The notes below the pieces were generated by a model. The model made no database searches. It worked only from the letters and a program-made list of their open reading frames with translations, and was not told where the DNA came from. The translations under genes were made by a program, and so were the position numbers. Below, piece after piece: positions 23,435 to 26,450 of a DNA stretch of 64,000 nucleotides. This DNA comes from Candidatus Fraserbacteria bacterium (lineage in GTDB: Bacteria; Bipolaricaulota; Bipolaricaulia; RBG-16-55-9; JAJCYT01). The stretch covers positions 1-64,000 of the forward strand of contig JAJCYT010000034.1 in the NCBI GenBank assembly GCA_029262795.1. The letters are read 5' to 3'. Numbering within the stretch: the stretch's first letter is position 1; each line of letters opens with the position of its first letter.

Positions 23435-24508
23435 ATGAAGCAGGGATGGCTCAAACTGATTGCACTTTCAATAAACGGAATTTTACTTGTTTTGTTATCG
23501 GGGTGTTTGGCGCTTGATCAAATTGCGCCAACGGTGGTTACCAACACGCCATTGAATGGATCGATAGACATTGCGCTCAATTCTGCATTGACCGCTGTGT
23601 TTAGCGAACCAATCAATGCCTCAACACTAAATAACACGTCCTTCATTGTGACCAGCGCTGGGGGTGCCGTGGCAGGCACAGTCACACTCACAGATTTAAC
23701 GGCCACGTTTACACCAACCATCGCTTTGGATCAGAACACAACGTACACCGCCAGCATCAGCGAAACGGTCAAGGATTTGGCAGGAAACACCTTGGGTGCT
23801 GCCTTTCGTTGGACGTTTACGACAATCAACCTGATTCCAACGGTTGAGTTTTCTGTCGATGCGCAGTTGGTGGATGAAAGTGTTGGTGTGGTTACGGTCA
23901 CAGCCAATTTGAGTGCGACCAGTGGCAGTTTGGTCACCATTCCTTTCTTGGTCAGTGGCACGGCACTTAGCCCTGGGGATCATGATTTGATTGATGGCAC
24001 GATCATCATCTCGCCTGGGTTGACCACAGCTAGCACCACTTTTACTGTGGTCGATGATGGCGACGATGAGAACAATGAAACTGTCATTATCAATATCGGT
24101 ACACCCACCAATGCCACAATTGGTGCAATGAACAAGCAAACGGTGACGATTAATGACAACGATTTGCCGACGGTGAACTGGACCATCAACGGTCAGACAG
24201 CGAATGAACTCAACACCTGTCCTTGTCCAGTGACGGTATCTGCGACACTGAGTTCAGCGTCCGCATTGGATGTGACGGTGCCTTATACAGTGACAGGGAC
24301 TGCGACGGAAACCACGGACTTTTCCACGCCTACGGCCAATCCATTGGTCATTACTGCGGGAAGTGTCACCGGTTCGATTTCATTTAACATCCTGGATGAT
24401 TTGCAGACCGAATCTTCCGAGTTCGTCAGCTTGACGATTGGTGCACCCACCAACGCTGTGGCTGGTTCCACGGTGCAACACTCGGTTGAAATTATCGACA
24501 ACGAATAG
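23435..24508 (+). CDS. Lipoprotein with bacterial Ig-like (SbsA-type) and Calx-beta domains
   Basis: lipobox LLSGC; IAPTVVTNTPLNGSIDIALNSALTAVFSEPI; two Calx-beta-like repeats with DDGDDENNETVIINIG. Confidence 0.85.
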   Translation: MKQGWLKLIALSINGILLVLLSGCLALDQIAPTVVTNTPLNGSIDIALNSALTAVFSEPINASTLNNTSFIVTSAGGAVAGTVTLTDLTATFTPTIALDQNTTYTASISETVKDLAGNTLGAAFRWTFTTINLIPTVEFSVDAQLVDESVGVVTVTANLSATSGSLVTIPFLVSGTALSPGDHDLIDGTIIISPGLTTASTTFTVVDDGDDENNETVIINIGTPTNATIGAMNKQTVTINDNDLPTVNWTINGQTANELNTCPCPVTVSATLSSASALDVTVPYTVTGTATETTDFSTPTANPLVITAGSVTGSISFNILDDLQTESSEFVSLTIGAPTNAVAGSTVQHSVEIIDNE

Positions 24509-24579: not shown

Positions 24580-24915
24580 GAAACAATTTAAAAACTTTTT
24601 AGGGTTTGGAATATTTAAATTTATAAAAGCTTCAAATCCCCCAACCCCCTTTTCTAAAGGGGGCTACATTGGTTTCTGCGAGTGAAGTTCTTGAATTGAC
24701 ACTTTGTGCTTGTTGTTAGTTTGCTTATGTTCATAAAAATAAAAACCAGTTTTCTTAAATCTTTATTCAAAAATTCAAACCCAATTCCGCAAAGAAAAAA
24801 GTAGCGTAATTTAGAATCACTCTATGCAGTCTAATCGTGCCCCGCTTCCTTAAAGAAGCGTCCCCTTTGAAAGGGGGTTGGGGGTTAGAAGGCTTTTCGT
24901 TTAATTTCCGTCTCT
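24580..24915. mobile_element. MITE-like element, copy 1 (terminal inverted repeats carrying CCCCCAACCCCCTTT)
   Basis: inverted cores at 24633-24666 and 24862-24893; outer A/T-rich arms resemble copy 2; no coding capacity. Outer limits approximate. Confidence 0.6.
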
Positions 24916-25029: not shown

Positions 25030-25131
25030 GGTTTCGAAACGGCAAACTGCGTGAAAGCGCAAGGCGCAAAACCACAGATCCTAACAGCAACGTGCGATCA
25101 TTGCTGCGGATGGCTGGGTTACCGAAAAACC
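25030..25131 (+). promoter_or_regulatory. Cyclic-di-GMP-I (GEMM) riboswitch
   Basis: CGGCAAACTGCGTGAAAGCGCAAGGCGCAAAACCACAGATCCTAACAGCAA...TTGCTGCGGATGGCTGGGTTACCG: conserved GGCAAA, GAAA tetraloop hairpin, GGCGCAAAaCC, CCTAA/ATGG receptor, P3 AGCAA/TTGCT, terminal GGGTTACCG. Confidence 0.93.
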
Positions 25132-25133
25132 AG

Positions 25134-26450
25134 ATGTTATACAAGCGATCATATGTCTATACTCTCTTATTTATAGCCGCATTGAGCCTGTTGCATGCGC
25201 CATTGGTGTTGGCCAATGCGGCTGCACCTCTGCTTAATTCACTGACGTTTCCTAATGTGGTTCAAACAGGACAAACTGGCCAGGGCCAGATTACATTCAG
25301 TTCCGATGTATCTGTAGATCGATTGGAGCTGGCTGTGGTCGATGGCCGATATATGCGCCATGATTTTGAACTTGAAGGCAGCAGCGGCACCTTTTCTTTT
25401 TCCCTGGATTGCACCGATTACGCACAGCGCATTGTGCTTCAGGCGACGTTGCTGAATGAGGATGGTGCGCGTAGCGAGCCGGAATTAATTACCTTCAACT
25501 GCGGGCAACCCCCTCGTTATGATTTCACACAGCAACAGGCAGCCTCGATGCCGATGGGGCAGTACATGAGGCTGAACGTATTTGTATTGGAAGATCAGGT
25601 CACCAGCTTAACTCAGGGTGCCCAAACGGGTCAGTCAAATTGGTGGAGTGCGCCTTCGCCTTTGTTGATCCGTGCGTTGGAGGACACCATCTTGCCATCA
25701 CTGAATGGCATTTGGGATCAGTGCAGCGTTGGTTTTGAATTGGGCACGGTACGAGTGCTCCATCCCGATGAAGTATCTATTCCTCAAGGTTCTTTTGGCA
25801 AATTGCTGTTCAGCAAACGAGGAGAAGAACGCTACATTCAGCATGGAGGTCGTGTCGGAGCGGTCATGAAGTTGGGGCGAGAAGCAGTGGCACAAAAGCT
25901 GATTGAAGAAGGCATTGCTGTTGGGGGTGAAGATGTATTTGTGTTTGTGGTGGGATCACGCATTTATACCTCCAACAATGGTAAAAAACTGGATATTGAA
26001 GGATTTGGTGAAGTCAACCATCCCACGTATAGCATCGTACGTTGGGGCGCGATCCATGAACAGGGCAGCGAGTTTGTGATGCCGAAGCAATTCATTTCAT
26101 CTCTGGCGCATGAACTGGGACACAACATGGGATTATATCATCCAGGCACGGACGGCTTGTCCAACACAGCGTCCGACAGCAACAATTTGATGAAAGGTTC
26201 CGGTGTGGCGCCAGAGCCACGCGCGAACCTGTTACCGGCCCAATGCCAAATGGTTTCGAACCAGATTGCACAGCTTGCCACGCAGGTTGCGGCAGATCAG
26301 GCTTCGGCAGACGCACCAGCCACTGATGCACCTATCAGTGATGGCGGGCAAGGGATTACTTCAGTTAAGCAACCCTTTTACACGTTTCTACTTTTTCTCA
26401 CGCTTGTGCTTTGGACCTCTCAAAGCGGATTGCGCCGCCTCAAACAATAA
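25134..26450 (+). CDS. Secreted, C-terminally anchored metzincin-like zinc metalloprotease
   Basis: signal peptide MLYKRSYVYTLLFIAALSLLHAPLVLANA; HELGHNMGLYH (HExxHxxGxxH), NNLM Met-turn; C-terminal TM and basic tail. The ORF-track start 25092 lies inside the riboswitch. Confidence 0.88.
   Translation: MLYKRSYVYTLLFIAALSLLHAPLVLANAAAPLLNSLTFPNVVQTGQTGQGQITFSSDVSVDRLELAVVDGRYMRHDFELEGSSGTFSFSLDCTDYAQRIVLQATLLNEDGARSEPELITFNCGQPPRYDFTQQQAASMPMGQYMRLNVFVLEDQVTSLTQGAQTGQSNWWSAPSPLLIRALEDTILPSLNGIWDQCSVGFELGTVRVLHPDEVSIPQGSFGKLLFSKRGEERYIQHGGRVGAVMKLGREAVAQKLIEEGIAVGGEDVFVFVVGSRIYTSNNGKKLDIEGFGEVNHPTYSIVRWGAIHEQGSEFVMPKQFISSLAHELGHNMGLYHPGTDGLSNTASDSNNLMKGSGVAPEPRANLLPAQCQMVSNQIAQLATQVAADQASADAPATDAPISDGGQGITSVKQPFYTFLLFLTLVLWTSQSGLRRLKQ

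Follow-up and report, generated by a model that had tools for sequence, protein, structure and literature searches.

The closest described counterpart of the locus analysed here is zmpI of Clostridioides difficile (PPEP-1, CD630_28300), which lies downstream of the class I riboswitch Cdi-1-12 and whose product, a secreted metalloprotease, cuts two proteins of the cell surface; zmpI expression drops strongly as c-di-GMP rises, and the genes of the cleaved proteins go up (PMC6200980). The Bc1 c-di-GMP-I riboswitch is reported to have a long platform that contains two Rho-independent terminators (PMC11218506). A different arrangement is direct translation attenuation, which Barrick and Breaker (2007) define by a start codon no more than 15 nt from the aptamer core and which is known for SAM-I, TPP and preQ1 riboswitches; in SAM-I the 3' side of P1 incorporates the ribosome-binding site (PMC2258182). 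GEMM is not mentioned in the text of that survey (PMC2258182).

The window, by which we mean the whole stretch of 64,000 nucleotides that was analysed, also holds a c-di-GMP-I aptamer before the gene of a secreted zinc metalloprotease. The features of this locus are the following.

25030..25034, + strand: 5' strand GGUUU of the P1 outer helix, complementary to 25127-25131
25031..25126, + strand: c-di-GMP-I (GEMM-I) riboswitch aptamer, from the RF01051 covariance model
25041-25046, + strand: GGCAAA, position by sequence
25041, + strand: equivalent of G20 in Vc2 numbering, computed position
25048..25061, + strand: P2 hairpin TGCG/CGCA with a GAAA tetraloop at 25053-25056, from cmscan and sequence
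From 25063, + strand: GGCGCAAA, an aptamer element named in the preliminary description and present
25068, + strand: equivalent of A47 in Vc2 numbering, computed position
25080..25113, + strand: P3 (CAGCAA/TTGCTG) and tetraloop receptor, CCUAA at 25080-25084 and AUGG at 25110-25113
25122, + strand: equivalent of C92 in Vc2 numbering, computed position
25127..25131, + strand: 3' strand AAACC of the P1 outer helix, covering -7 to -3 relative to the start codon
25134..26450, + strand: secreted metzincin-like zinc protease, 438 aa, from the open reading frame, weak Pfam M12 matches, alignments and a structure model

We hypothesize that this aptamer probably switches off translation of the secreted zinc protease when c-di-GMP binds, and that it does so without a separate platform; ligand binding, the direction and level of control, and proteolysis are what we infer. 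The preliminary description of this DNA had drawn a parallel to the c-di-GMP-regulated protease of C. difficile, and the parallel is borne out by zmpI, which is under Cdi-1-12 and repressed by c-di-GMP (PMC6200980). The regulatory logic proposed here would be the same, although the effect on zmpI was measured on the transcript, the enzyme belongs to another protease family, and the window aptamer abuts its start codon without a terminator. The c-di-GMP-I riboswitches of C. difficile and Bacillus that have terminators, Bc1 among them, share the aptamer class but differ from the window leader, which has none.

The identity of the aptamer is the firmest part of this proposal. A cmscan of the whole window returned a single riboswitch, an RF01051 (c-di-GMP-I) match at 25031-25126 (+) that spans the full model (1-87) with E = 2.8e-8; its score of 56.1 bits, well over the gathering cut-off of 35, is also the outcome of the Infernal search that the preliminary description had proposed. 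The hallmark GEMM-I elements named there were all located at the positions given, and GGGTTACCG is also present. The bases at 25041, 25068 and 25122 correspond, in this order, to positions G20, A47 and C92 in Vc2. A guanine at the G20 position favours c-di-GMP and an adenine cGAMP, A47 stacks between both ligand guanines, and C92 pairs with one of them. All three of these ligand-contact bases are present, as are the GAAA tetraloop in P2 and its receptor in P3. Judged by its sequence, the RNA at 25031-25126 is a genuine c-di-GMP-I riboswitch.

The 438-aa protein comprises a signal peptide, an Ig-like domain at about residues 34-124, the zinc motif HELGHNMGLYH at 326-336, a Met-turn NLM at 351-353, and a C-terminal hydrophobic helix with a basic tail at 416-438. 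The HExxHxxGxxH motif, which is shared with M12-type metzincins, has H326, E327, H330, G333 and H336 invariant in the closest homologue set; in the alignment of 12 homologues both this motif and the Met-turn are nearly invariant, the latter being fully so in the closest 4. No family in Pfam, NCBIfam or PDB was found above cut-off, with M12, M66 and related metzincins sub-threshold: the best Pfam score is 17.8 bits against a cut-off of 27, and the best PDB sequence match has E = 0.2. Of the earlier designation as a secreted metzincin protease, the signal peptide, zinc motif and Met-turn stand, whereas the family assignment finds no match above cut-off, and the term "metzincin-like" is supported by the motif and its conservation, not by family membership. 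A structure model built from a 4-sequence alignment (pLDDT 69) recovered the Ig-like domain. The Bacteroides structures BF3526/BACOVA_00663 likewise combine an Ig-like domain with a peptidase, but the whole-chain matches to them are weak (TM-scores of about 0.25) and no match to the catalytic domain is convincing.

The preliminary description had also named a Calx-beta/Ig lipoprotein (23435-24508) as a candidate substrate. Nothing beyond proximity supports this candidate: cmscan of the whole window places no riboswitch before its gene, and no gene of this type was seen in the list of open reading frames around the L122 homologue. Upstream of the aptamer, short C-/G-rich stretches at 24640-24665 and 24850-24890 (CCCCCAACCCCCTTTTCTAAAGGGGG and a near mirror of it) flank the intergenic region and resemble the arms of an inverted repeat.

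How would an aptamer in this position govern the protease gene? The preliminary description held that the 3' strand of P1 ends 2 nt before ATG 25134 and that no separate expression platform is visible. Both points agree with our analysis, in which AAACC occupies 25127-25131 and no intrinsic terminator was found between the aptamer and the protease gene. The start codon, 7 nt past the end of the RF01051 match, falls within the 15 nt of the aptamer core that define direct translation attenuation; it is itself outside P1. A point against the proposal is that ATG 25134 has no Shine-Dalgarno sequence before it; P1 would then mask the initiation region and not a clear ribosome-binding site. In a leader that is free of terminators and whose P1 lies over positions -7 to -3 relative to the AUG, initiation would most simply be blocked by P1 once the ligand stabilises it. 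At low c-di-GMP, the 3' strand of P1 would be free or mis-paired and ribosomes may start at AUG 25134. With c-di-GMP bound, the aptamer would lock P1 (GGUUU/AAACC) over the bases immediately 5' of the AUG, the ribosome could not load, and protease output would drop, with neither a terminator nor a separate expression platform required.

The pairing of aptamer and protease recurs in homologues. A search with the 4-sequence alignment finds homologues of the window protein in Candidatus Fraserbacteria and Candidatus Acetothermia, and three distant ones (in G008, in G003 at C18 and, as a fragment, in G005; 38%, 37% and 34% identity, respectively) are immediately preceded by one or two c-di-GMP-I aptamers, with the ATG 6, 6 and 1 nt past the aptamer (L017, L018, L023). 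The P1 strands are all complementary yet different (GGUUU/AAACC in the window, GGUCC/GGACC in G008, CGGUUC/GAACUG in G003 and AGCAUC/GAUGCU in G005), and in the G005 homologue P1 encloses the start codon. Several other homologues, including a second G003 copy and NHL-fused forms, lack an aptamer (L027, L022, L019, L020, L028, L031, L029); the association is frequent, not universal. In G005, two loci (L072/L076, at G005:C115 and G005:C79) are ordinary tandem pairs of c-di-GMP-I aptamers before secreted-protein genes, one of which is the protease homologue.

The placement of start codons was also counted across the clade. Among 70 aptamers of the order, 36 have an ATG at -1 to +12, whereas later bins as wide as this one hold 5-13. 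The positions peak at +1 and at +5 to +7, with 15 cases each. ATGs that open a reading frame of 60 codons or more occur 23 times in that bin against 2-5 in later ones. The 81 aptamers from the rest of the class show a smaller excess (42 vs 16-25; frames 29 vs 8-18); all of these aptamers are within Bipolaricaulota, and the species in the spacing and pairing counts are related, so that the counts are not independent events. True pairs of 5' and 3' flanks are more complementary than shuffled ones (mean 9.56 vs 6.41, sd 0.41), and 0 of 2000 shuffles reached as high. When P1 is taken as a helix of at least 4 bp, the AUG is inside it in 23 of the 31 aptamers with an ATG at -1 to +2, compared with 13.6 (sd 2.7) when 5' flanks are drawn from other aptamers, a control that is conservative because many flanks carry CAUC. 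Clean examples are L303 (GUGACCAUC/GAUGGUCAC) and L277 (CAGCAUCC/GGAUGCUG). The likeness to direct translation attenuation is that the start codon follows no more than 15 nt from the core, and the difference in Bipolaricaulota is that the start codon itself often lies within P1. As a comparison set for other phyla, a pattern scan of viral contigs gave only 1 aptamer with a recognisable 3' end and does not enter these counts.

In energy models the ligand-free fold of the window leader, a slipped helix UUCGGU/ACCGAA, is more stable than the P1 fold by about 2 kcal/mol. This helix ties up C92 and leaves AAACCAGAUG open, which, as a prediction for this single leader, would fit an OFF switch. Helices of this type are not enriched in relatives (4 of 63, with 3.2 expected), and the helix was rejected as a conserved anti-aptamer element. 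The same models predict a weak hairpin near the AUG even without ligand, which counts against an OFF switch. Together, the ligand-free helix and this hairpin are what would favour an ON switch, in which the ligand removes one or the other and thereby exposes the start. We regard this as unlikely: the ligand-free helix is not conserved, and in G005, as in many other aptamers across the phylum, the AUG forms part of the P1 helix, which the ligand would strengthen.

The block to translation may also act indirectly. An untranslated mRNA becomes exposed to Rho and RNases, and control could be exerted on the transcript, by Rho-dependent termination or mRNA decay once translation is blocked, and not on initiation itself. 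This general behaviour of blocked messages speaks for such a route, but the leader has no intrinsic terminator and control of initiation explains the start-codon spacing most simply; we consider transcript-level control improbable, slightly more so than an ON switch.

A second in-frame ATG lies at 25110, within the tetraloop receptor of the aptamer, and its frame is open and continuous to 25134. If translation began there, receptor bases would double as coding sequence (MAGLPKNQ...), as might be argued from a locus of the same genome, L002, whose aptamer contains AAAGGAG and an ATG leading into a signal peptide. This start is nevertheless very unlikely: no Shine-Dalgarno sequence precedes 25110, the G003 homologue has no upstream in-frame ATG and begins at +6, and the fixed length of the aptamer core yields in-frame ATGs at -20 and +1/+7 by geometry. 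The homologues point to ATG 25134, rather than 25110, as the probable real start. L002 itself (G000:C28:27487-27572) has its Shine-Dalgarno-like AAAGGAG and ATG within P3 and reads into the signal-peptide protein MAAGLPKFNIISLL..., and from its sequence the start signal appears to be built into the aptamer. Least probable of all is that the ligand is cGAMP rather than c-di-GMP, for although some relatives in the order (L109, L110 and L119, in G013) have c-di-GMP-I-type aptamers with an A at the G20 position, a change known from cGAMP-sensing variants, the window aptamer has the c-di-GMP-type G at 25041.

The translational OFF switch that we favour for the protease belongs to a larger set. c-di-GMP-I aptamers were found in 97 of the 100 Candidatus Bipolaricaulota genomes searched. 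The window's genome has 15 RF01051 matches, 14 of them above cut-off, and five strong GGDEF domains, and most of its aptamers that stand before a recognisable gene precede a secreted protein. At five loci (L092, L098, L099, L102, L104) an N-terminus MRGTAMPAxxSSxIPNA, conserved across several species, begins about 110-190 nt downstream of the aptamer. We tentatively suggest, as a possibility just short of probable, a phylum-wide c-di-GMP-I start-codon lock, in which the AUG of many secreted-protein genes lies in or against P1, the aptamer is itself the platform, and the protease is one member of the regulon; linked to it is the nesting of aptamers in some species.

In nine genomes (G000, the window's own, and G002, G024, G030, G036, G057, G090, G092 and G093), the P3 loop of one c-di-GMP-I aptamer accommodates another, complete one. 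The case in the window's genome is on the minus strand at about 94530-94720 of G000:C34 (L012/L014), outside the window. The inner aptamer lies between the 5' and 3' halves of the outer one, and the outer P1 (GCAUCUA/UAGAUGC) closes the whole. When GAAA stands in for the inner aptamer, 92.8% of cells pair and 9 pairs are changed on both sides compared with 3.6 in shuffles, where the structure is taken from a single member of the set and the loop-closing pairs beside GAAA are artificial. Sliding the partners destroys the pairing, and the outer helices covary. A literature search on nested aptamers found no natural case among the papers covered. This side finding may be more novel than the protease switch, and nested aptamers merit separate study.

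In a phylum that has hardly been studied, the switch proposed here would make a secreted protease subject to c-di-GMP and would repeat the logic of C. difficile, to which the lineage is unrelated. The clade would offer dozens of natural, platform-free c-di-GMP-I switches, which would be useful to test how a ligand-stabilised P1 alone can gate translation.
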